From Candidatus Treponema merdequi (GTDB taxonomy: Bacteria; Spirochaetota; Spirochaetia; Treponematales; Treponemataceae): a stretch of 64,000 bases of DNA. The notes under the pieces were generated by a model. That model was not told the origin of the DNA, searched no databases, and saw only the letters and a list, made by a program, of their open reading frames with translations. Shown here in pieces: positions 4,630 through 56,425 of the stretch. Made by a program: the position numbers and the translations under genes. Position 1 is the first letter of the stretch, and the number at the start of each line of letters is the position of its first letter. The DNA lies in the NCBI GenBank assembly GCA_018064525.1, contig JAGHVB010000055.1:1-64000 (forward strand), written 5' to 3'.

Positions 4630-6318
4630 ATGCGAAAATTTAATTTAAAATTTCCGAAATTAAAAATTCCAATCTCGATTCAGATTTCTATTTTTCTTGT
4701 CATCATTGCGTTTGTTCCTGTAGTTGTAATGATGGCATTAAAAACTTATGAAAAACAGCAGCTCGCAATGCTTGAAAGTTCCAATGTTCAGCAGGCGAGA
4801 ATTGTTGCTTCGAGTTTGTCTTCGTTTGGTGTAAATAATCAGAACGCAAAAAAGATTCTCGAAAACATGAACGGTCAGTTTGTGAGCCGTATCCGTGTGT
4901 TGAACAGTGACGGTGAACTGATTGCCGATTCTGCTTTGTGGAATGAAAATGAGCCTCAGACTTCCGCAGTGCAGGAAAATGTTATAAAAAGTCGTGACGA
5001 TGAAACTTATTCTGTTTTTGAAACAAATGCCGGCGAAGAAAATTCCACTCGAAAATATGCAGAAGAAACTTTTGTCTATAAATTATTTTCTTTTCCTGTC
5101 CGAATGATGAGAAAAGTACTCGGGAGGCCGACTCCATATCAGACTGCAGATTTTTACAGTGAGAAAAAAGTTTACGACGGCGAAGAAATTAAAGCTGCGT
5201 TAAATGGAACTTACGGAGCCGTGACCCGAATATCAAGCGGAGAACAGAGGAGTGTTACGCTTTATTCTGCAGTTCCGGTTCTTGATGAAAATGAAAAAGT
5301 TTGTGGTGTCGTTTTAGTAAGCCGTTCAACTTACAGAATTTTGAGAAATATTTATGAACTCAGACGAGATCTTGCGGTAATCTTTTTGAAATCTTTAGCT
5401 GCAGTCTTTGTGATTGCAGTTTTCTTTGCATTCAGAATAAGCCGTCCGTTGAAAAAATTGTCACGACAGGCAACTGACTGCGCTGATAAAAAAGGAAAAA
5501 TCATTTTTACAAAGTTTACGGGTTCAAAACGAATTGATGAAATCGGTGATTTGTCGCGTTCGTTTTCAAGTCTTATCGAAAGATTAAATAAAAAAATTCA
5601 GTTTGGTCAGGCTTTCTCTTCTGATATTTCACATGAGTTTAAAAATCCTCTCACAGTAATCAGATCTTCTGCAGAACTTTTGAATGATCCTGATTTGTCA
5701 AAAGAAGACAGAGATGAAATCTGTAAGGCTGTAATTTCAGAAGTGAACCATCTGCAGATGCTCTTAACCGGCGTAAGAAATATTTCTAAAATTGATGCAG
5801 GCGAAGAACTTGAGTGTGAACCGATTCCGGTTTGTGCATTTGTTGAAAATATTATTTCGAGAGTTCAGAAAAAGTATTCAGATGTAAAAGATGTTGATTT
5901 TATTTTTGAAAAAAATATTTCTGATGAGTTTGCACTTAAAATTCCAGAAGATTATTTTGACCGTGCAGCAGAAAATCTTATTGATAACGCCGCAAGTTTT
6001 GGAAGTAAAGTTAAGATAACCGTTGAATGCAAAAATAGTTTCGGAATTAAAAACGGCAACATTTCAAACACCACTGCTGATAGAAATAATTATTTTTCAC
6101 TCATTGTTGAAGACAACGGAAAAGGAATTAACCCTGATTCAATCGAAAAGATTTTTGACCGCTTCTATTCTGAACGCGATGATTCTGTAAAGACAAGTCA
6201 CACTGGACTCGGACTTTCAACTGTCAAAGCGATTGCAGATTCTCTTGAAGGCGAGATTTTAGTCGGTAAAAGTGAAACACTCGGCGGGGCTAAGTTTGAG
6301 ATGAGAATAAATTGTTAG
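4630..6318 (+). CDS. Membrane sensor histidine kinase (CreC-like)
   Basis: A 562-aa two-component sensor kinase. TM1 spans about 17-36. An extracytoplasmic sensor region of some 200 residues follows, then TM2 (about 248-268) and a HAMP-type linker. The dimerisation domain carries the phospho-acceptor His335 in SHEFKNPLTVIRS. The ATPase domain shows the N-box (ENLIDNAASFG), G1 (EDNGKGI), F-box (FDRFYSERDD) and G2 (HTGLGLSTVKAI). The ATG lies 4 nt after the rluA stop, without a Shine-Dalgarno, so translation is probably coupled. creD and a response regulator downstream suggest a CreC-like role; the stimulus is unknown. Confidence 0.9.
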   Translation: MRKFNLKFPKLKIPISIQISIFLVIIAFVPVVVMMALKTYEKQQLAMLESSNVQQARIVASSLSSFGVNNQNAKKILENMNGQFVSRIRVLNSDGELIADSALWNENEPQTSAVQENVIKSRDDETYSVFETNAGEENSTRKYAEETFVYKLFSFPVRMMRKVLGRPTPYQTADFYSEKKVYDGEEIKAALNGTYGAVTRISSGEQRSVTLYSAVPVLDENEKVCGVVLVSRSTYRILRNIYELRRDLAVIFLKSLAAVFVIAVFFAFRISRPLKKLSRQATDCADKKGKIIFTKFTGSKRIDEIGDLSRSFSSLIERLNKKIQFGQAFSSDISHEFKNPLTVIRSSAELLNDPDLSKEDRDEICKAVISEVNHLQMLLTGVRNISKIDAGEELECEPIPVCAFVENIISRVQKKYSDVKDVDFIFEKNISDEFALKIPEDYFDRAAENLIDNAASFGSKVKITVECKNSFGIKNGNISNTTADRNNYFSLIVEDNGKGINPDSIEKIFDRFYSERDDSVKTSHTGLGLSTVKAIADSLEGEILVGKSETLGGAKFEMRINC

Positions 6319-6369
6319 AGCGCACTCTCTCGAGCAATGTGAGTTACCCCAAAAGCTGAAATCATTCGA

Positions 6370-6402
6370 AATACCCGCGGGTATTGAAAGAGACCGCGGT
6401 CT
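6370..6402. promoter_or_regulatory. Two adjacent palindromes with CCGCGG cores
   Basis: A perfect 16-bp palindrome (AATACCCGCGGGTATT, 6370-6385) is followed by a perfect 12-bp palindrome (AGACCGCGGTCT, 6391-6402). Their centres are 19 bp apart, close to two helical turns. They lie between the kinase and creD, in otherwise AT-rich DNA. A dimeric regulator site or small stem-loops are both possible. Confidence 0.4.
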
Positions 6403-6419
6403 GGTAAATTCCAAAATAA

Positions 6420-6460
6420 CACAATCCTGCCACAATTTTGACACAATCTCTTAATACAAT
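6420..6460 (+). promoter_or_regulatory. Candidate response-regulator box and -10 of creD
   Basis: CACAAT occurs three times at exactly 11-bp intervals (6420-6425, 6431-6436, 6442-6447), followed by TACAAT (6455-6460), which could serve as a -10. OmpR/PhoB-type regulators bind direct repeats with about 11-bp spacing; E. coli CreB uses TTCAC repeats with the same period. A TTGACA at 6438-6443 lies inside the array but is not at a usable distance from the -10. Confidence 0.45.
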
Positions 6461-6525
6461 TTCCTTAACAAAGGCCGGAAGTATATGTGCTTCTAAAACA
6501 GGCTTTTTAGTTAAGGAGTTTTTTT

Positions 6526-7860
6526 ATGAAAAAATCATCATCGATTGCAGGAAAAATAGTTTTTATGTCTGCAATCATCGGAGCATTGCTTCTTGCAAAT
6601 CTTTTCATCGGGTTGAAATTAAATGACAGAGAAATCGCAAGAAATAATGCTAAAGAGAGTATTGCAAAAGCGGCAGGCGAAAAGTTCTGCATTCGAAAAG
6701 TTGAATTTGAAGTGCCTTATGAAAGAAATGTAAAAAAGATAAATTCAAAAGGTGCTGCTTATCTTGATAAAGAATTTGGAACTGTGCGCTTTTCTCCTGA
6801 AAATTTAAACTGTGAAGCAGAAATTAAATCTGAAATCAGACACCTTGGTATTTACAGCGCTCCAATCTTTACAGGTAAAATTAAACTTTCAGGTCAGTTT
6901 ACATATAATCAGAATAATAATTCTGAATATACTTATAAAACTGATAATGCAAAGTGCAGAGTTGTTTTATCAGATAAATCAGTTCTTGAAATACCTGTTT
7001 TTGAAATTAATGGAATTAAAAGTAAGCCGGAATTTGAAATTAACGCAAAATATTTGAATGAAATGGGAAATTATGAATATTCTAATCTAGTGATTTTAAA
7101 ATCAGATTTTAAATGTGTTAAAGGTACAAATGTTTTTTCAACAGAATTAAACATTCGTGGAGCAGAAAAATTTACATTGTTCCTTTCTGATAAACAGAAT
7201 AAACTTTCTGTTAAATCTGACTGGAAGAGCCCTGGTTTTACAGATTTTGATTATTTGCCGACAACACGCAATTTAACAGAAGAAGGTTTTACTGCTGACT
7301 GGTTTGTTCCGTTTACTGGAAATGATAATGATAGAATCGGATTTGAATTTAAAACTCCTGTTGATGTTTATAAAATGCTTGATCGTGCAGTTACTTATGG
7401 ATTTTTATTTATCATAGTTCCATTTATCGTACTTTTCCTTTTTGAAATATTCATGAAGATTTCACTTCATCCAGTAAATTATCTTTTGTGCGGTGCAGCA
7501 TCAATTGTATTCTTCTTACTCTTGATGAGTTTTTCAGAACATATTCCATTTACTGCAGCATATCTTATTTCAAGTTTTGCAAGTGGAATCGTAATATCGC
7601 TTTATGTTGCATCTATTACAAAGAATGTCAAAACCGGAATCGGAATGTGCGTAACTTTCATCTTGATGTACGGTTATCTTTTCTTCTCGCTCAAGTCAGA
7701 AGATTACGCACTTCTTATCGGTTCAATTTTTACATTCATCATTATCGCAGCATTGATGTTCTTTACAAGAAAAGTTGACTGGAACAATTTGAAAGGTGCA
7801 TCATCAAAAGCAGGAGATGATAAACCTGACAACTTGAAATTAACTGATAAAACTGAGTAA
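6526..7860 (+). CDS. creD: CreD family inner-membrane protein
   Basis: CreD is an inner-membrane protein controlled by the CreBC two-component system in enterobacteria, linked to envelope integrity and beta-lactam or colicin tolerance; its molecular activity is unknown. The 444-aa protein has the family layout: one N-terminal TM (about 11-30), a large beta-rich extracytoplasmic domain (about 31-285), then a cluster of TM helices (about 288-430) with the family segments HPVNYLLCGAA, SEHIPFTAAYLI and SEDYALLIGS. AAGGAG precedes the ATG. It lies between the kinase and regulator genes, unlike the E. coli order creABCD. Confidence 0.9.
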   Translation: MKKSSSIAGKIVFMSAIIGALLLANLFIGLKLNDREIARNNAKESIAKAAGEKFCIRKVEFEVPYERNVKKINSKGAAYLDKEFGTVRFSPENLNCEAEIKSEIRHLGIYSAPIFTGKIKLSGQFTYNQNNNSEYTYKTDNAKCRVVLSDKSVLEIPVFEINGIKSKPEFEINAKYLNEMGNYEYSNLVILKSDFKCVKGTNVFSTELNIRGAEKFTLFLSDKQNKLSVKSDWKSPGFTDFDYLPTTRNLTEEGFTADWFVPFTGNDNDRIGFEFKTPVDVYKMLDRAVTYGFLFIIVPFIVLFLFEIFMKISLHPVNYLLCGAASIVFFLLLMSFSEHIPFTAAYLISSFASGIVISLYVASITKNVKTGIGMCVTFILMYGYLFFSLKSEDYALLIGSIFTFIIIAALMFFTRKVDWNNLKGASSKAGDDKPDNLKLTDKTE

Positions 7861-7869
7861 AATAAAATT
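7834..7869 (+). promoter_or_regulatory. Possible leaderless promoter for the response regulator
   Basis: TTGAAA (7834-7839), an 18-bp spacer and TAAAAT (7858-7863) are followed 6 bp later by the ATG at 7870. There is no Shine-Dalgarno. The elements overlap the end of creD, so transcription from upstream is equally possible. Confidence 0.35.
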
Positions 7870-8583
7870 ATGATAGCGCTTGTTGATGATGAAAAAAATG
7901 TCCGTATGACAATTAAGACTGCCTTGAAAAAAGAAGGTTTTGAAACAGTGGAATTTGCAAACGGACAGGAGATTTATGATTCTGTGAAATCTGGTTTGAA
8001 TCCGGAGTTGATTGTAATGGATATAATGATGCCTGTTATGGATGGAATTATGTGCCTTAAAAAGCTTCGCGATGACGGAATTAAAACTCCAGTAATGTTT
8101 TTGACAAGCCGCGATGAAGAATTTGATAAAGTTCTGGGGCTCGAACTTGGTGCTGACGATTATCTTTGTAAGCCGTTTTCAATGCGCGAACTCGTTGCAA
8201 GAATTCATGTGCTTTTGAGAAGATGCAGCTATCATGAGTCAGCCTTAGATAATACAGATGCCGGCGGAGAAAATTCCAATAACAAAAACATTCTCCGCTC
8301 GGGCAGCCTTGAATTAAACCTGCTTTCATATACAGCAAAAATAAATCAGAAATCAATCGAACTTACTGTAACTGAGTTTCGTCTGCTTGAAGGTTTTTTG
8401 AAAAATCAGAATATCGTTTTATCAAGAGACCAGCTCATCGAAATCAGTTACCCCGAAGATACATATCTCAACGACAGGGCAATCGACTGTCACATCAAGC
8501 GACTGAGAAAAAAACTTTCGTGTGATGAAAATCTTTCTGAAAAAATCCAGACAGTATATGGCGCCGGTTATAAGTGGGAATAA
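7870..8583 (+). CDS. OmpR-family response regulator (CreB-like)
   Basis: This 237-aa DNA-binding response regulator is the likely partner of the upstream kinase. The receiver domain (1-115) has the acidic pair Asp6/Asp7, phospho-acceptor Asp51 in VMDIMMP and Lys101 in CKPFS. A linker rich in Asn/Gly (about 124-142) joins a winged-helix effector domain with the usual LELNLLSYTA start, TVTEFRLLEGFL and DRAIDCHIKRLRKKL recognition region, ending TVYGAGYKWE. OmpR-family proteins bind direct repeats, which fits the 11-bp-period repeats upstream of creD. The start has only an A-rich leader without a ribosome-binding site. Confidence 0.93.
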   Translation: MIALVDDEKNVRMTIKTALKKEGFETVEFANGQEIYDSVKSGLNPELIVMDIMMPVMDGIMCLKKLRDDGIKTPVMFLTSRDEEFDKVLGLELGADDYLCKPFSMRELVARIHVLLRRCSYHESALDNTDAGGENSNNKNILRSGSLELNLLSYTAKINQKSIELTVTEFRLLEGFLKNQNIVLSRDQLIEISYPEDTYLNDRAIDCHIKRLRKKLSCDENLSEKIQTVYGAGYKWE

Positions 8584-8616
8584 TTTAAGGCTGTCCTATT
8601 TTTGACAGGACTTGCT

Positions 8617-9345
8617 ATGAATCACATTAAAACATATTTTAAAAATATTTTTTCCATTCGATCGACAAAACTTCTTTGCGCGATTTCTGTATTTGCAGTT
8701 GTGATGGCATTGATGAGATTTTTTGTTACGGGTTATACGATTTATCTTTTTATGCTTACAAATCTTTTTCTTGCATTTGTTCCATGGTTTATTTCTTCTA
8801 TTATTCAGACACATGAAATTAAAAATCGTTTTCTTTTTGCTGTTTTGATTTTTTTCTGGATTATATTTTTCCCAAATGCTCCGTACATGCTCACAGATTT
8901 AATTCATCTTGGAAAGAATCGCGCAGCTCCGCTCTGGTATGATTTGATTATGCTTTTAACTTTTGGATTTGCAGGTTTGTATTATGCGTTTGTGAGCCTC
9001 GAAGTTATTGAAGAAAAATTGAAAAAGAGAATGTCTGGTAAGAATAAAATTGTGACAAATAAGTTTTGCATTTTTAATAATGATTGCAGAATATTTATTT
9101 TTCGAGTGATTTTTATTTATATTACCTGTTTTGGAATTTACCTCGGCCGTTTTCTCAGATGGAACACCTGGGATCTTTTAGGAAATTTTGGCGGAGTCAT
9201 GAATGATGTTTGTAAAAGAGTTCTACTTCCTTTTAATTATCCCGGAGCATGGGGATTTTCTGTTCTTGGCGGAACTTTTTTGAATTTGATTTACATGATT
9301 ATGAAAAATGGCGCGGACAGTGAAGTGATTCCGGTTGCAAAATGA
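8617..9345 (+). CDS. DUF1361 multi-spanning membrane protein
   Basis: A 242-aa integral membrane protein with the DUF1361 landmarks FFPNAPYMLTDLIHL, PLWYDLIMLLTFGFAGLYY and GIYLGRFLRWNTWD. Around six or seven hydrophobic helices are visible. The function of this family is unknown. The ATG at 8617 is preceded by AGGA at 7 nt; an earlier in-frame TTG at 8602 lacks a ribosome-binding site. It follows the response-regulator gene by 33 nt and may belong to the same transcript, which would place it in the Cre-like envelope response. Confidence 0.85.
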   Translation: MNHIKTYFKNIFSIRSTKLLCAISVFAVVMALMRFFVTGYTIYLFMLTNLFLAFVPWFISSIIQTHEIKNRFLFAVLIFFWIIFFPNAPYMLTDLIHLGKNRAAPLWYDLIMLLTFGFAGLYYAFVSLEVIEEKLKKRMSGKNKIVTNKFCIFNNDCRIFIFRVIFIYITCFGIYLGRFLRWNTWDLLGNFGGVMNDVCKRVLLPFNYPGAWGFSVLGGTFLNLIYMIMKNGADSEVIPVAK

Positions 9346-9359
9346 TGTCAGTAAAGAAG
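9344..9359 (+). repeat. 16-bp dispersed repeat, copy 1
   Basis: GATGTCAGTAAAGAAG occurs here and again at 16969-16984, both times on the + strand right at or after a stop codon. The following bases (a G then T-rich) are also similar. Its function is unknown. Confidence 0.5.
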
Positions 9360-9388
9360 CGGTTTTGGCATTAAATTATATCTCTTAA

Positions 9389-9433
9389 TTGACAAATTCC
9401 ACTTACGCATATAAACTAACAACAGGTAGTTTA
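9389..9433 (+). promoter_or_regulatory. Promoter and likely auto-operator of the TetR gene
   Basis: TTGACA (9389-9394), a 17-bp spacer and TAAACT (9412-9417) form a good promoter. An inverted repeat, TAAACTA (9412-9418) and TAGTTTA (9427-9433) with an 8-bp spacer, overlaps the -10 and ends 2 bp before the ATG. This is a plausible operator for self-repression. Confidence 0.6.
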
Positions 9434-9435
9434 AA

Positions 9436-10086
9436 ATGTCACGTCCGCTTATCACTCAGGAAAAAATCATAGAAGCCGCTCTCTTTTGTGCCTTTGAAAA
9501 AGGTATGGGAGAAACTTCGCTCAATGACATTTCTAATTACCTCACAATCAAAAAAGCCAGTCTCTACAATCATTTTGCGAGCAAAGAAGAAATGCTCAAA
9601 GCCATCTATACTTACTGCTCGGATTTTTATACAAAAGTAAATCTCGTTTCAGAAGATGATCTTGCTTCTGCTGGTGGAACTCAGATAGAAAAGATGTTCA
9701 AATCATGTGCTGCCAATTACATTAAAAAGCACGAAGTCGATCCGCTTTTTCAGATCTACACTTTTGTCCAATCAGAAAAATATTTTACAAAAGAAGTCCT
9801 CGACATCTATCTTGCTCAGTGCGCCAAAATCGAAAACCAGGCTTTTCTCTTTTTTAAGCTCATAAACAAAAACGATGACATGGATAACGCAGCAATCAAG
9901 CGTGAAGCTAAGTACTTTTCACAAGTCCTTTTAACTTCGCTCGACACATATCTTGCAGCCCGCAAAGAAACAATCCGCCAGAATCCTGAAAGCGGTGTCG
10001 GCGCCCTTTTTGTCCTCCCGAGTGATGACAAGTCTTTGACAGACATCTCAAAATTTGCCGAGATGACGGTTAAGAAGTTTCTCTAA
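9436..10086 (+). CDS. TetR/AcrR family transcriptional regulator
   Basis: A 216-aa repressor-type protein. The N-terminal three-helix DNA-binding domain is clear (about 8-55: TQEKIIEAALFCAFEKG, SLNDISNYLTIKKASLYNHFASKEEML). The C-terminal helical ligand domain shows no recognisable specificity. The ATG follows AGG at 9 nt. The inverted repeat across its own -10 suggests autorepression. The next gene is more than 500 bp away, so its targets are not obvious, though the inverted repeats at 10177-10351 are also candidates. Confidence 0.9.
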   Translation: MSRPLITQEKIIEAALFCAFEKGMGETSLNDISNYLTIKKASLYNHFASKEEMLKAIYTYCSDFYTKVNLVSEDDLASAGGTQIEKMFKSCAANYIKKHEVDPLFQIYTFVQSEKYFTKEVLDIYLAQCAKIENQAFLFFKLINKNDDMDNAAIKREAKYFSQVLLTSLDTYLAARKETIRQNPESGVGALFVLPSDDKSLTDISKFAEMTVKKFL

Positions 10087-10176
10087 GAAAATAGTCTTCA
10101 CTGAAATTCATCATTTTGATTAATTTGATGTATGTAATGATTTTTTATTTCTGGGCGAAAATCATTTTTTTAAAGT

Positions 10177-10215
10177 GGCTAATAAAAGAGGTTTGATTTG
10201 GTGGTTTTATTAGCC
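10177..10215. repeat. Inverted repeat IR1
   Basis: GGCTAATAAAA (10177-10187) and its exact complement TTTTATTAGCC (10205-10215) are separated by 17 bp. Confidence 0.7.
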
Positions 10216-10312
10216 AAAACTGAGAATTTTTTGTTTTTTTTAAGTGGAATTTGCACATTTTGCCTGTTTTGAAGTCTATATTTGCCAGGGATATCTGTTT
10301 TTTTTGTGAAAT

Positions 10313-22884: not shown

Positions 22885-24471
22885 ATGGAGAGTGTTAATC
22901 AGAAAGTAGACAGGGAAGCTTTTTGCCGGCAGGAAGCTGTAATTTCAAGTCTCGCAATTGAGTATGATTACGTTGCGTGTGTAAATATGAAAGCACATGA
23001 CGTAATTCTTTATCGTGTAAGTAAATTATTTGAGACATTATACAATGAGATTGATCCCAGTCTTTCAGAAGACGAAAGACTCAGAATGTTCTTTAAGCAG
23101 GTCGTTTATGAAGAAGACTGGCCTGGTTTTCAGCGTTCTGTAGAAGATGAAAAAATCAAATCTGAACTTTCCGTATGCCCATCTTATGAAGTTTTCTTCC
23201 GAATCAAGATTTCAGATGAACTTTATTATTATAAACTCCGTTTTACTGCTTCAGAAGCTGATCCTGACAGTGTAGTTGTAGGTCTTATCAGTTTTGATGA
23301 ACAGACCCGTGCCCAGATTCGTCATAAAGAAGATGCGGATGCACGCTCGCTGATAGAAAAGCAGTTTGAAGTTCTTATTACAGAGCGTACTTCAGAAATT
23401 CAGTCAAAGAATAAGGCTTTAAATCGAATCAACGAAGATATTATTGAACTTTTGGGTGATGTGACAGAAGCCCGCGATGCAGAAAGCGGCCAGCACATCA
23501 GAAGAGTAAAAGGTTTTACACATATTCTTGCAGAACAGGTGATGAGAGACTGGCCTGAATATAAGCTTACACAGAATAAAGTTGAGCTTATTACTTCTGC
23601 CAGCGCTCTTCATGATATCGGTAAGATTACAATTCCAGATGCAATTTTACTAAAACCTGGACGCCTTACCCCTGAAGAATTTGATATAATGAAAATGCAC
23701 AGTATAAACGGCTGTGGTATTTTACAGCGTGCTCCAAAAGACTGGAGTGAAGCTTACCTGACAACCAGCATGGAAATCTGCCGTTCTCACCATGAAAAAT
23801 GGGACGGAAGGGGTTATCCGGACGGGTTAAAAGGAAATCAGATACCAATTTCGGCTCAGATTGTTTCTGTTGCCGATTGTTATGACGCGCTTACAGCAAA
23901 ACGCGTATATAAAGATGCTTTTTCGCCTGATAAAGCCTGTAACATGATTCTTGGAGGAGAATGCGGGGCTTTTTCTGACATGATTTTGCAGTCATTTGAA
24001 AAAAGCAGGGACAAATTTGTAGATTATTTCAACAGGGGTCTTTCCGGACTAAAGACTTCAATTTCGGTTGGAATAAATGCAGAACGCCTTGCAGGGGTCA
24101 GAATTCTTCTTGTAGAAGATAATGAGATGAGCCGTTTGATTGCAAGAGAAATGCTCGAAGGTGAAGGTGCTACAGTAATAGAAGCTAAAACTGGACCAGA
24201 AGCCCTTGATATGTTCAATGCGGTTGTAGCTGGTACGTTTAACGCGATTCTTATGGATGTCATAATGCCTGGAATGAGCGGACCTGATGTCGCTAAGGCA
24301 ATCCGGCAGATAGACAGCCCGCACGCAAGAGCGATTCCGATTATCGCCCTTACATCTTCAACAGATGAAAAAGACGTACGGGACTGCTTCTTGAGCGGTA
24401 TGAATTCTTATCTTACAAAGCCTGTAAAGATTTCTTCTTTAACAGATGCGCTTTTGAGTTTAATCAACTAA
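22885..24471 (+). CDS. HD-GYP phosphodiesterase with C-terminal receiver domain
   Basis: A 528-aa cytoplasmic enzyme predicted to hydrolyse c-di-GMP. The N-terminal 150 residues look like a PAS-type domain, followed by a coiled linker. The HD-GYP domain is intact: His243-Asp244 (ALHDIGKI), LLKPGRLTPEEFDIMKMH, His302-His303, and GRGYP at 308-312. A receiver domain fills about 405-528, with the acceptor Asp458 (LMDVIMPG) and a KP motif near the end. The order HD-GYP then receiver is reversed from the common RpfG layout. The ATG at 22885 has AAAGGG upstream; an in-frame GTG at 22864 is less likely. TATAAT (22848-22853) is a probable -10. Confidence 0.92.
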   Translation: MESVNQKVDREAFCRQEAVISSLAIEYDYVACVNMKAHDVILYRVSKLFETLYNEIDPSLSEDERLRMFFKQVVYEEDWPGFQRSVEDEKIKSELSVCPSYEVFFRIKISDELYYYKLRFTASEADPDSVVVGLISFDEQTRAQIRHKEDADARSLIEKQFEVLITERTSEIQSKNKALNRINEDIIELLGDVTEARDAESGQHIRRVKGFTHILAEQVMRDWPEYKLTQNKVELITSASALHDIGKITIPDAILLKPGRLTPEEFDIMKMHSINGCGILQRAPKDWSEAYLTTSMEICRSHHEKWDGRGYPDGLKGNQIPISAQIVSVADCYDALTAKRVYKDAFSPDKACNMILGGECGAFSDMILQSFEKSRDKFVDYFNRGLSGLKTSISVGINAERLAGVRILLVEDNEMSRLIAREMLEGEGATVIEAKTGPEALDMFNAVVAGTFNAILMDVIMPGMSGPDVAKAIRQIDSPHARAIPIIALTSSTDEKDVRDCFLSGMNSYLTKPVKISSLTDALLSLIN

Positions 24472-52762: not shown

Positions 52763-52854
52763 AAGTCTTTTATAAATAAATTCATAAAAAAATCAGAAAA
52801 AGTAACAGAAAAAATAGTTTTAAGTGTTAAATTATAGACGGAGTTATAAAGTCA

Positions 52855-53343
52855 ATGCAAACTTTAACAAATCGCGATTTTGCAGAACTCTATCAAAAGT
52901 TTGGACCAATGGTATTAAGAAGATGCCGCTTTATCCTTAAAGATGAGGAAAAAGCACTCGATGCGATGCAAGATGTTTTTCTTCGTATCATGGAACATAA
53001 AGAGTCAGTTACTAATGTATGTGCAAGCTTGTTTTATGTTACGGCAACTCGTATTTGCCTGAATAAAATCAGATCTGATAAGTTGAGGAGCGGACCTGAT
53101 TTTGAAACAATTGCACAGGTCATGGTTGATGATTTTTCGTCAAAAGAAACTGATAAAGTAGAAGCTGCATTCATTCTGGAAAAGATTTTTGATTCGAGGG
53201 ATCAGAAAGATAAAATGATTGCAACGCTTCATTATGTTGATGGTCTTACACTGGAAGAGACTGCAAATGAAGTAGGAATGTCTGTATCTGGTATTCGAAA
53301 ACGGTTGTCAGAATTACAGAAGTATGCACGAAAAACAAATTAA
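52855..53343 (+). CDS. ECF-type RNA polymerase sigma factor
   Basis: A 162-aa alternative sigma factor with region 2 (about 8-72: FAELYQKFGPMVLRRCRFILKDEEKALDAMQDVFLRIM) and region 4 (about 108-158: LHYVDGLTLEETANEVGMSVSGIRKRLSELQKYAR). GGAG lies upstream of the ATG. AGTAACA at 52801-52807 with an AT-rich stretch about 16 bp downstream could be an autoregulated ECF promoter, but this is weak. An anti-sigma-like membrane protein and a secreted caspase gene follow with short spacings (10 and 18 nt), which defines a three-gene operon. Confidence 0.9.
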   Translation: MQTLTNRDFAELYQKFGPMVLRRCRFILKDEEKALDAMQDVFLRIMEHKESVTNVCASLFYVTATRICLNKIRSDKLRSGPDFETIAQVMVDDFSSKETDKVEAAFILEKIFDSRDQKDKMIATLHYVDGLTLEETANEVGMSVSGIRKRLSELQKYARKTN

Positions 53344-53353
53344 GGAGTTTTAA

Positions 53354-54112
53354 ATGATTCCACAATTATTATTAGAAGAAATTAATCTTGGTGAAAAAAA
53401 AGCAGAAGATTATTACGATAAATATGGAAAAGAAGAACTTGAAGCTGCGTTAAAGGAACTCAGAAAATCTGATGAAGAAATTCTTTTGCAGTATCCTTTT
53501 GAAAAGGTGATACCGGAAAAATTAAAATCAGAAGAGAGTGCGGATAAGAATGTTAAGATTGTTGATTTTGCAAAATTCCGAAAAGTTGGTTTTGCAGCAG
53601 CTGCAGCACTTGCTGTTCTTGTAAGTGCTCCGATTGTTATCCGTTCGTTAAATTCAGATACTGCTCAGAATGATTCAATCAGATTAAAAGGCGCAGAATC
53701 AAAACAGACTCTTAAACTTTACAAACAGGATGGCGGTTCCGCAGTTTTATTGAATAATGGTGCAAAAGTAAAATCTGGTGATGTAATTCAGATTTCTTAT
53801 GTAGCCGGCAAAAATGATTATGGACTTATTTTCAGTATTGATGGAAATGGAAATGTAACTAAACATTTTCCAGATTCAACATGGAAAGCTGCAAAATTAA
53901 ATCATAATATGATTGAAGTTCCGCTTGATTTTTCTTATGAACTTGATGATGCACCAAATTATGAATGTTTTGTTTTTGTAACTGGAGATAAGCCTTTTGT
54001 TCTTGATGAATTGAGTATGATTGATTCTAAAGATGCAAAACTTGATATTATTAAAGATTCTCAGTATGTTCCAAAAACTTGCGTAAAATCAATTTTTATG
54101 TTGAAAAAATAA
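53354..54112 (+). CDS. Membrane anti-sigma-like protein with an extracytoplasmic beta domain
   Basis: A 252-aa single-span protein. An acidic cytoplasmic part (1-75) is helical and could bind the sigma factor. TM is about 77-96 (GFAAAAALAVLVSAPIVI). The outer part (about 110-252) is beta-rich (SGDVIQISYVAGKNDYGLIFSIDGNGNVTKHFP), resembling DUF4384-type domains that accompany bacterial caspase-like proteins. No zinc-binding HxxxCxxC anti-sigma motif is visible. AAGGAG lies just before the ATG. Its position between an ECF sigma gene and the caspase gene is the main argument for an anti-sigma role. Confidence 0.65.
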   Translation: MIPQLLLEEINLGEKKAEDYYDKYGKEELEAALKELRKSDEEILLQYPFEKVIPEKLKSEESADKNVKIVDFAKFRKVGFAAAAALAVLVSAPIVIRSLNSDTAQNDSIRLKGAESKQTLKLYKQDGGSAVLLNNGAKVKSGDVIQISYVAGKNDYGLIFSIDGNGNVTKHFPDSTWKAAKLNHNMIEVPLDFSYELDDAPNYECFVFVTGDKPFVLDELSMIDSKDAKLDIIKDSQYVPKTCVKSIFMLKK

Positions 54113-54130
54113 TCCAGGGAAAAGATTAAT

Positions 54131-56425
54131 ATGTTGTTTAATAATAAAAAAATCATATCTTTTTGTGCTGCATGTTTTACTTCATTCTGCGTTTTTGCAG
54201 AAGGTGTAGAAAGATTTGCTCTTTATATCGGATGTAATTCCGGTGGAAAAAATAATGCGCGTCTTATGTATGCCGGAACAGATGCGTCTTCTTTTCAAAA
54301 GACAATGTCAGAAATCGGAGGTATCCCGAATTCAAACAGCATTCTTTTAATTGATCCGACAAAAGATGATGTTGATAATGCATTGAATGCAATTACAGAT
54401 GCAATAAAAAGAAATTCAAATGCAAGCCGCCGTTCGGAATTTATTTTTTACTATTCCGGACACTCGAGTGAGACAGCTTTACTGCTTGGAAAAACTTCAT
54501 ACGAATATACAATATTAAAAGAATCAATTTCTCAGGTTCCAAGTGATGTTCATGTTGTAATTCTTGATTCATGCTATTCAGGAAATTTCATCAGGACAAA
54601 AGGCGGTTCAAGACAAAAACCGTTTTTAGTTGATGATTCAACTGTTGTAAAAGGTCACGCTTATCTTTCATCAAGTTCTTCTCAAGAGACTTCTCAGGAA
54701 TCTGATGAAATCGGTTCATCATTTTTTACAAATGCAGTTTTAACAGGGCTCAGAGGAGCAGCTGATACAACTGGTGATAAAAAAGTTACTCTTAATGAAT
54801 TGTATTCTTATGCTTTTAATGAAACTCTTTCTAAAACAGAAAGCAGTGCGTCAGGTCCGCAGCATCCTAATTACAATATTACTCTCGTAGGTTCCGGAGA
54901 TCTTGTTCTTTCTGATATTTCAACTTCTGAATGTCTTGTAAAAGTTTCAAAAGAAACAGACGGAAGAGTAATCATCAGAAATAATGCCGGAAAACTTGTT
55001 TCTGAAATTCAAAAGACTTATGGAAGTCCAGTTTTTCTTGCTCTTGAACGCGGAAGATATTCTGCAACTGTCATCACACAGGAAAATACATATCAGGGCA
55101 ATTTTGAACTTTCTCCGAATAAAGTATATGTAGTACAGACGAACAGTCTTTCTGCAATCAACAGAACTTCAAACAGAACTCGTGGTGAAGGAAACGGAAA
55201 TGCATCTGATTCTGGTGAAGAGTTTGCAGATGTTGTTGAAGCACCGCAAAGTGAAGTTGTGTATGTTCCTTTTTGTTTTTCAGTATTTAATGGAATAACA
55301 AAATATTTTGGTAACAAAAATATTAATAAAGATGTCATTGCGACAATTGCTTTAGGTTTAATAGGATCTGATGTATACGGAATAAGAGGTGCACAGGTTT
55401 CAATCGGTGTAAATCATGCAGAGTCTGTATCGGGTGTACAGGGAGCTGCTATTGGTAATATTGCTTCTGATGTTAAAGGCGTTCAGGGATCGGCTGTTTT
55501 TAATATGGCAAAAAAAATAACCGGTGTACAGGGGACTGCAGTCTTTAATCTTTCACAGGATGTTGTCGGTGTACAGGGATCTGGAGTTTTTAATATTGCT
55601 GATGATATTAAAGGTGTTCAGGGATCCGGTGTTTTTAATGTTGCGCGTGGAATTATCGGAGCACAGGGAACAGGTGTCATAAATGTTGCCCGTGATGTTA
55701 TCGGTGTGCAGGGTGCTGGAGTTGCAAACTTTACACAGAAAAATCTCAAGGGTGTACAGGGATCCGGAGTTGTCAATATAGCCGGTGGAAATGTCATCGG
55801 TGTACAGGGAGCTGCAATTGCAAACTATGCACATAGCGTTACAGGTGTACAGGCAGGTCTTGTAAATATCTGTTCGGGGGATTGTTATGGAATTCAGGTT
55901 GGATTGATTAATTATTCCAGAAACGGTGTCTGTGAAATCGGTGCTTCTTATACAACTGACAGTAATTTAAGATTTACATTTAATACGGGTTCGAGATATC
56001 TGTATGCCATTGTGGGATGCTGTGCGGATGTAAAAAACTTTGATTCTTCGGTTGATAATTCTCAAAAGTATGCACATCTTCTTATGGGACTTGGAACAAG
56101 AGTCAGAGCATGGCTTTTCAATTTTGATTTTGAAATACTTGCAAATGAAATCCTTTATGACATGAATTTTAAGACTGATACTGATGAAAAAGATGATTTT
56201 AATTTCAGTATAAAAAAATCATGGTATCCTTCTTTAAGAATGTGTGTCGGATTTACTCCTGTAAAACATCTTCAGCTTTTTGCAGGTGCTGCGTTATCAT
56301 TTGAATTCAAAGAAAATAACGAAGCGTTTAATTTGAAACATAATAATTTTGTAATTGAAACAGATGATCCGCATTTCAAATTACATCCGGAATTTGACTT
56401 TGGTTTGAGATTTAGTTTTAATTAA
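54131..56425 (+). CDS. Secreted caspase-family protease with GVQG repeats and a barrel-like end
   Basis: A 764-aa exported protein. The signal peptide ends at about residue 23 (CVFA). A peptidase C14 caspase domain (about 27-255) has both catalytic residues: His111 in FYYSGHSS and Cys148 in LDSCYSG. A beta segment (265-335) and a Gly/Asn/Ser-rich linker (345-372) follow. About eleven repeats with a 15-residue (sometimes 16) period run from 435 to 600, built on GVQGxxVxNxAxxxx. They resemble the LA_2272-type surface repeats of spirochaetes. The C-terminal 150 residues are beta-rich (barrel-like). It is third in an operon with an ECF sigma and an anti-sigma-like gene. Confidence 0.85.
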   Translation: MLFNNKKIISFCAACFTSFCVFAEGVERFALYIGCNSGGKNNARLMYAGTDASSFQKTMSEIGGIPNSNSILLIDPTKDDVDNALNAITDAIKRNSNASRRSEFIFYYSGHSSETALLLGKTSYEYTILKESISQVPSDVHVVILDSCYSGNFIRTKGGSRQKPFLVDDSTVVKGHAYLSSSSSQETSQESDEIGSSFFTNAVLTGLRGAADTTGDKKVTLNELYSYAFNETLSKTESSASGPQHPNYNITLVGSGDLVLSDISTSECLVKVSKETDGRVIIRNNAGKLVSEIQKTYGSPVFLALERGRYSATVITQENTYQGNFELSPNKVYVVQTNSLSAINRTSNRTRGEGNGNASDSGEEFADVVEAPQSEVVYVPFCFSVFNGITKYFGNKNINKDVIATIALGLIGSDVYGIRGAQVSIGVNHAESVSGVQGAAIGNIASDVKGVQGSAVFNMAKKITGVQGTAVFNLSQDVVGVQGSGVFNIADDIKGVQGSGVFNVARGIIGAQGTGVINVARDVIGVQGAGVANFTQKNLKGVQGSGVVNIAGGNVIGVQGAAIANYAHSVTGVQAGLVNICSGDCYGIQVGLINYSRNGVCEIGASYTTDSNLRFTFNTGSRYLYAIVGCCADVKNFDSSVDNSQKYAHLLMGLGTRVRAWLFNFDFEILANEILYDMNFKTDTDEKDDFNFSIKKSWYPSLRMCVGFTPVKHLQLFAGAALSFEFKENNEAFNLKHNNFVIETDDPHFKLHPEFDFGLRFSFN

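Follow-up and report, generated by a model that had tools for sequence, protein, structure and literature searches.

In a window of 64,000 nucleotides from Candidatus Treponema merdequi (the whole stretch analysed here; GenBank assembly GCA_018064525.1, contig JAGHVB010000055.1, positions 1 to 64,000), three genes on the forward strand at 52855-56425 encode an extracytoplasmic function (ECF) sigma factor, an anti-sigma-like single-span membrane protein and an exported caspase-family protease. The preliminary description of the locus had called these genes tightly spaced, and indeed the gaps are 10 bases between the sigma factor and membrane protein genes and 18 bases between the membrane protein and caspase genes. 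Our analysis confirmed that the three genes are a real, strongly conserved module, the genetics and regulon of which are well supported. We consider it reasonably probable that this module is an autoregulated envelope switch, in which the caspase would process itself and would then cut the anti-sigma-like protein as a site-1 protease, freeing the sigma factor; both kinds of cleavage we infer from a sequence motif common to the protease and its presumed substrate.

Discussion of caspase homologues in bacteria has mostly treated them as effectors of cell death or defence. Here the operon, its promoter and regulon, and the common motif tie an exported caspase to the control of envelope transcription, and with a named candidate substrate, a candidate cut site and a defined regulon the role of such a protease becomes directly testable. 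If the proposed switch is true, a site-1 protease has been found for an anti-sigma factor of the DUF4384 type, and caspase-triggered sigma release exists outside CRISPR.

A conserved module and its regulon

Orthologues were drawn from two collections, one holding a single genome for each species and the other 393 genomes of the phylum, of which 95 matched at E 0.001 or better, more than half of these being close members of the family of the window caspase. Since some loci of the two collections belong to the same genome, distinct caspase sequences (n = 106) were counted. The order sigma factor, anti-sigma-like protein, caspase is kept in 97 of the 106 distinct loci, which rules out chance adjacency of the three genes. 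Conservation of this order across spirochaetes had been proposed beforehand as a check, with failure to co-occur in relatives as the outcome that would refute the idea; the genes do co-occur. Five of the exceptions are contig ends, two (L225 and L232) are confounded by long overlapping reading frames, and in L224 the genes are ordered caspase-sigma-anti-sigma. At locus L104 the caspase gene (4905-7244) has neither sigma nor anti-sigma gene beside it and a promoter-like site of the sigma type lies immediately 5' of it; the sigma and anti-sigma pair of the same genome (G466) is on a separate contig (L218), and no caspase was found in the 5.5 kb read around that pair. Besides this split system G466 possesses a second, intact copy of the module (L219), of the leucine type described below. 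Genome G163 holds the module four times, with separate sigma and anti-sigma genes for every caspase. The module hosts include many Spirochaetota, one FCPU426 metagenome-assembled genome and two gammaproteobacterial ones (Gynuella and Pseudomonadales), and the module was found in 7 of the 247 genomes sampled in the phylum to which the Aminicenantes genome belongs. Within the genus sample the caspase occurs in 33 of 98 genomes; the closest relative found was Candidatus Treponema scatequi, with a caspase 87% identical.

A two-box motif, GTRACA-N16-KTGTYWA, precedes the sigma gene in 68 of 92 orthologous regions with a single fixed spacing: when spacings of 8 to 27 were scanned, one alone besides N16 gave matches (2 regions; shuffle mean 0.24). 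Several of the motif-negative regions show, by eye, near variants such as CTGTTA. The same motif stands some 20 bases ahead of the start codon of a TonB-dependent receptor gene lying directly 3' of the caspase (23 aligned loci) and again 5' of exbB, the next gene after the receptor in relatives; the receptor and ExbB-ExbD-ExbD-TonB genes adjoin the sigma operon in most relatives. In the window's own genome these genes are on contig C20 (L137, 5547-10177, reverse strand) with the promoter kept, and the three exact motif matches of that genome precede the sigma operon, the receptor gene and the ExbB-ExbD-ExbD-TonB operon. Matches with a single mismatch were not clearly above control in the same genome (26 versus 19), and therefore only exact matches and matches backed in relatives were used. 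Caspase and receptor genes tend to occur together in the 98 genomes of the genus (26 with both, 7 with the caspase only, 3 with the receptor only, 62 with neither; p = 3e-14, a value which, like that for covariation given below, treats sequences as independent and ignores shared ancestry). At the level of sequence, such a conserved and repeated promoter supports the autoregulation of the sigma factor and the existence of an envelope regulon. The receptor itself has three conserved K/R-G sites, one of which is the usual plug motif.

The promoter motif was also seen before other genes. In L088 it occurs (7245) before the gene of an exported M16 (PreP-like) peptidase (7302-10307) inserted between caspase and receptor, and in non-Treponema spirochaetes it lies ahead of small proteins, some 220 aa long, that are outer-membrane-like (L098 2672, L099 2612, L101 6551, L092 7160). 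Promoter-like sites lie before exported proteins that by eye resemble DUF4097-type beta-helix proteins (L139 1269-1806; L171 540-1481, reverse strand), which are possible further members of the regulon, with one mismatch in the window's own genome. A weak, low-scoring match at window position 24468, before an exported-looking reading frame of 1742 aa, is probably due to chance.

The R-x-[K/R]-G motif and competing explanations

In the window the two proteins have three R-x-[K/R]-G sites in all, two in the caspase and one in the anti-sigma-like protein, each edging a segment that is disordered in the AlphaFold2 (AF2) models. Among the orthologues, the caspase activation loop has KG in 125 of 126 loci, with Arg at P3 in 118, and in the caspase linker that leads into the barrel 101 of 103 distinct sequences show [R/K]-G. 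At the aligned site of the anti-sigma linker KG is present in 123 of 125 loci and P3 Arg in 109, this linker, between the transmembrane helix and the DUF4384 domain, being variable apart from R-x-K-G. The number of motifs per caspase is 1.74, versus 0.25 in shuffled sequences. That R-x-K-G is a general DUF4384 feature could be rejected, since among 30 controls fetched from outside the system (17 parsed, 13 unparsable) it was absent ahead of the domain in 17 of the 17 parsed. In L219 and L236 only, which belong to distant genomes, P3 Arg is changed to Leu in both the caspase and the anti-sigma (p = 2e-4).

In the mechanism that we favour, the single-span DUF4384 protein would keep the ECF sigma factor at the inner membrane, and the exported caspase would be anchored in the outer membrane via its C-terminal beta-barrel with the protease facing the periplasm. 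An envelope signal, perhaps, if we may speculate, failed barrel assembly or the state of TonB or the receptor, would provoke autoprocessing after Lys157 in the activation loop, and autoprocessing after Arg351 in the linker would detach the protease from the barrel. The caspase would then cut the anti-sigma after Lys112 in the exposed juxtamembrane linker, much as DegS acts on RseA at site 1; a site-2 protease, a PF02163 homologue of which is present in the window's genome, and cytoplasmic proteases would complete the breakdown, and the freed sigma factor would transcribe its own operon and the TonB-dependent receptor/ExbB-ExbD-TonB set. The earlier suggestion that the caspase cuts the anti-sigma-like protein in its outer region is thus retained in view of the common motif, but the cut would likely fall in the juxtamembrane linker and not in the DUF4384 domain. 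A broader proposal, of a general periplasmic switch in which one R-x-K|G motif serves a tethered caspase both for freeing itself and for cutting the anti-sigma while the barrel senses outer-membrane assembly or TonB state, is put forward as a tentative conjecture that may well be wrong.

Several considerations weigh against this mechanism. The P3 rule is loose, because in several pairs just one partner has lost the Arg (for example L033-L035, L221-L223; anti-sigma G-x-K-G, caspase R-x-K-G), and the basic residue of metacaspase maturation sites tolerates substitution (PMC9622860). The K-G-G of the caspase loop could be structural, and the outer-membrane tether may fall short of the inner membrane before release. 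The N-terminal domain of the membrane protein matched no Pfam anti-sigma family, for which reason its anti-sigma role is presumed, and the neglect of shared ancestry bears on both p-values.

The caspase might instead be an output of the sigma factor only, a tethered protease of itself and of envelope proteins, with the anti-sigma released by some other protease or by a ligand. The position of the operon under a sigma-type promoter together with envelope genes would suit such an arrangement, as would the location of two of the three conserved sites within the caspase itself; we nevertheless regard it as unlikely, given that the motif of the anti-sigma linker is the same as that of the caspase's own sites, is not in the other DUF4384 proteins tested and covaries with the caspase in two lineages. 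The constant pairing of the caspase with the DUF4384 protein, and the invariant residues which the DUF4384 domain holds besides the linker motif, might also be understood as negative feedback, in which the caspase is bound or inhibited by this domain and its level or export is reported to the sigma factor by the membrane protein, which normally stays uncut. A near-invariant motif within a disordered linker, however, suits a protease site more than a binding surface, and we give this explanation little credence. The layout of sigma factor, single-span regulator and outer-membrane barrel, with TonB-system genes in the regulon, also recalls FecI/FecR/FecA and would allow the membrane protein to be a FecR-like sigma activator and the caspase barrel a surface receptor that, like FecA, signals by contact. 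This appears very improbable, since neither the membrane protein nor its orthologues gave a match to FecR, and the third protein, with its intact protease, gave none to a plug or signalling domain.

Architecture of the three proteins

The window sigma factor matched TIGR02937 (sigma70-ECF, NCBIfam) at 1.5e-15 across residues 8-157 and, in Pfam, Sigma70_r2 at 1.9e-6, above the cut-off, with r4_2 slightly under it; judged by its domain content (sigma2 and sigma4 regions, other sigma regions absent), it is of ECF type. The AF2 model of the membrane protein (predicted local distance difference test, pLDDT, 86) has a single transmembrane helix, followed by disorder at 105-111 and a beta-sandwich at 115-252, and residues 1-71 hold 19 Asp/Glu versus 12 Lys/Arg, in agreement with the single span and acidic cytoplasmic part described before. 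The match to DUF4384 (PF14326) is weak in the window protein (0.0087, under the curated cut-off) and was obtained for 27 of 62 orthologues at E < 0.01 (best 1.5e-5). With one transmembrane span, an extracytoplasmic domain and a gene adjoining that of the sigma factor, the protein shares these features with membrane anti-sigma factors, and we infer that it sequesters the sigma factor through its helical N-terminus. No useful match came from searching PDB sequences with the anti-sigma profile, and a structure search with the model gave common beta-sandwiches only, via the outer domain, with no anti-sigma structure among the matches listed.

In the caspase (mean pLDDT 89.6) AF2 places the domains of Table 1 in the order caspase, beta domain, disorder and strands, many of the latter being 13 residues long and made of 15-residue repeats. 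The intact His111 and Cys148 noted previously are in place in the Pfam match to Peptidase_C14 and invariant in 68 sequences, together with the S1-type residues D51, S109 and D146. These three align with metacaspase positions (metacaspase-type acidic S1 residues) and agree with the S1 pocket residues of TbMCA2 (PMC4357240), in line with cleavage after Lys or Arg. The domain was superimposed on Arabidopsis metacaspase 4 with Z 21.4 and a root-mean-square deviation of 3.0 over 205 aligned residues; a search of PDB sequences with only the caspase as query yielded nothing of use.

The surface-type repeats of the preliminary description correspond to the NCBIfam match to LA_2272 surface repeats in the C-terminus, but they are better read as strands of a probable outer-membrane beta-barrel, and because of this predicted barrel the protease domain is probably located in the periplasm and not outside the cell. 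Foldseek matched the caspase model, weakly and with partial coverage, to the small outer-membrane barrels Ail (1.1e-3), NspA (1.6e-3), OmpX and OmpA, matches taken to be due to the strand region, and many orthologue C-termini finish in an aromatic or alternating strand. Export and topology of the protein are deduced from this barrel and from an N-terminus that by eye resembles a signal peptide.

Table 1. Features of the sigma factor/membrane protein/caspase locus (window coordinates)
Feature	Position	Strand	Remarks
Putative ECF-type promoter GTAACA-N16-GTGTTAA, operon autoregulation site	52802..52830	+	conserved dyad; exact match in own genome
ECF sigma factor gene	52855..53343	+	162 aa; TIGR02937 and Sigma70_r2 matches; orthologue 5' of nearly every caspase
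Anti-sigma-like single-span membrane protein gene	53354..54112	+	252 aa; periplasmic DUF4384 domain
Helical N-terminal cytoplasmic domain, presumed anti-sigma domain	53363..53527	+	residues 4-58; AF2, high confidence
Transmembrane helix	53567..53653	+	residues 72-100; AF2, sequence
R110-L-K112/G113, candidate cleavage motif, disordered juxtamembrane linker of membrane protein	53681..53692	+	conserved KG
Exported caspase-family protease gene, C-terminal beta-barrel (predicted)	54131..56425	+	764 aa; PF00656 1.8e-10
Caspase (C14) domain	54206..54889	+	residues 26-253; H111 54461-54463, C148 54572-54574
R155-T-K157/G158-G159, candidate autoprocessing motif, loop after Cys148 of caspase	54593..54607	+	disordered 158-170
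Beta domain between caspase and linker	54905..55165	+	residues 259-345; AF2
R349-T-R351/G352, candidate autoprocessing motif, start of disordered linker (349-373) of caspase	55175..55186	+	conserved [RK]G
About 20 antiparallel strands, LA_2272-type repeats, probable outer-membrane beta-barrel	55256..56422	+	NF047436 2.2e-7, AF2, Foldseek

Relation to known systems

A published description of the three-gene module was not found in a literature search largely without subscription papers. The closest analogue appears to be the type III-E CRISPR system in which Csx29 cuts Csx30, an inhibitor of CASP-sigma (PMC10028731): both have a caspase-clan protease (the cutting being predicted in our case), an inhibitor, presumed in our case, of a neighbouring sigma factor and sigma-binding motifs at their own locus. 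The CRISPR system, however, is cytoplasmic and RNA-triggered, with a CHAT-type protease and a soluble Csx30, whereas the module described here would combine an exported barrel-tethered protease with an inhibitor-like membrane protein bearing a DUF4384 outer domain. Neither CHAT nor TPR was among the Pfam and NCBIfam matches of the window protease, and the adjoining reading frames, judged by translation, are unlike Cas genes.

With DegS-RseA-sigmaE the module would share an envelope regulon and the cutting, at site 1, of a single-span anti-sigma within its periplasmic portion, but DegS is an inner-membrane serine protease, while the predicted site-1 protease here is an operon-encoded caspase of the C14 family with a fused outer-membrane barrel. 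The likeness to FecI/FecR/FecA in gene layout and TonB genes ends with a barrel that bears a caspase in place of plug and signalling domain, and with a regulator of DUF4384 and not FecR type. The ECF54 group, compared by description only, has CHAT-domain proteins in its genetic context and proteolytic control has been proposed for it, without an anti-sigma (PMC8999054). The protease resembles metacaspases and orthocaspases (C14B) in its fold, His/Cys dyad, acidic S1 residues and expected basic P1, and differs from them in its predicted export, its extra beta domain and barrel, and its operon with a sigma factor.

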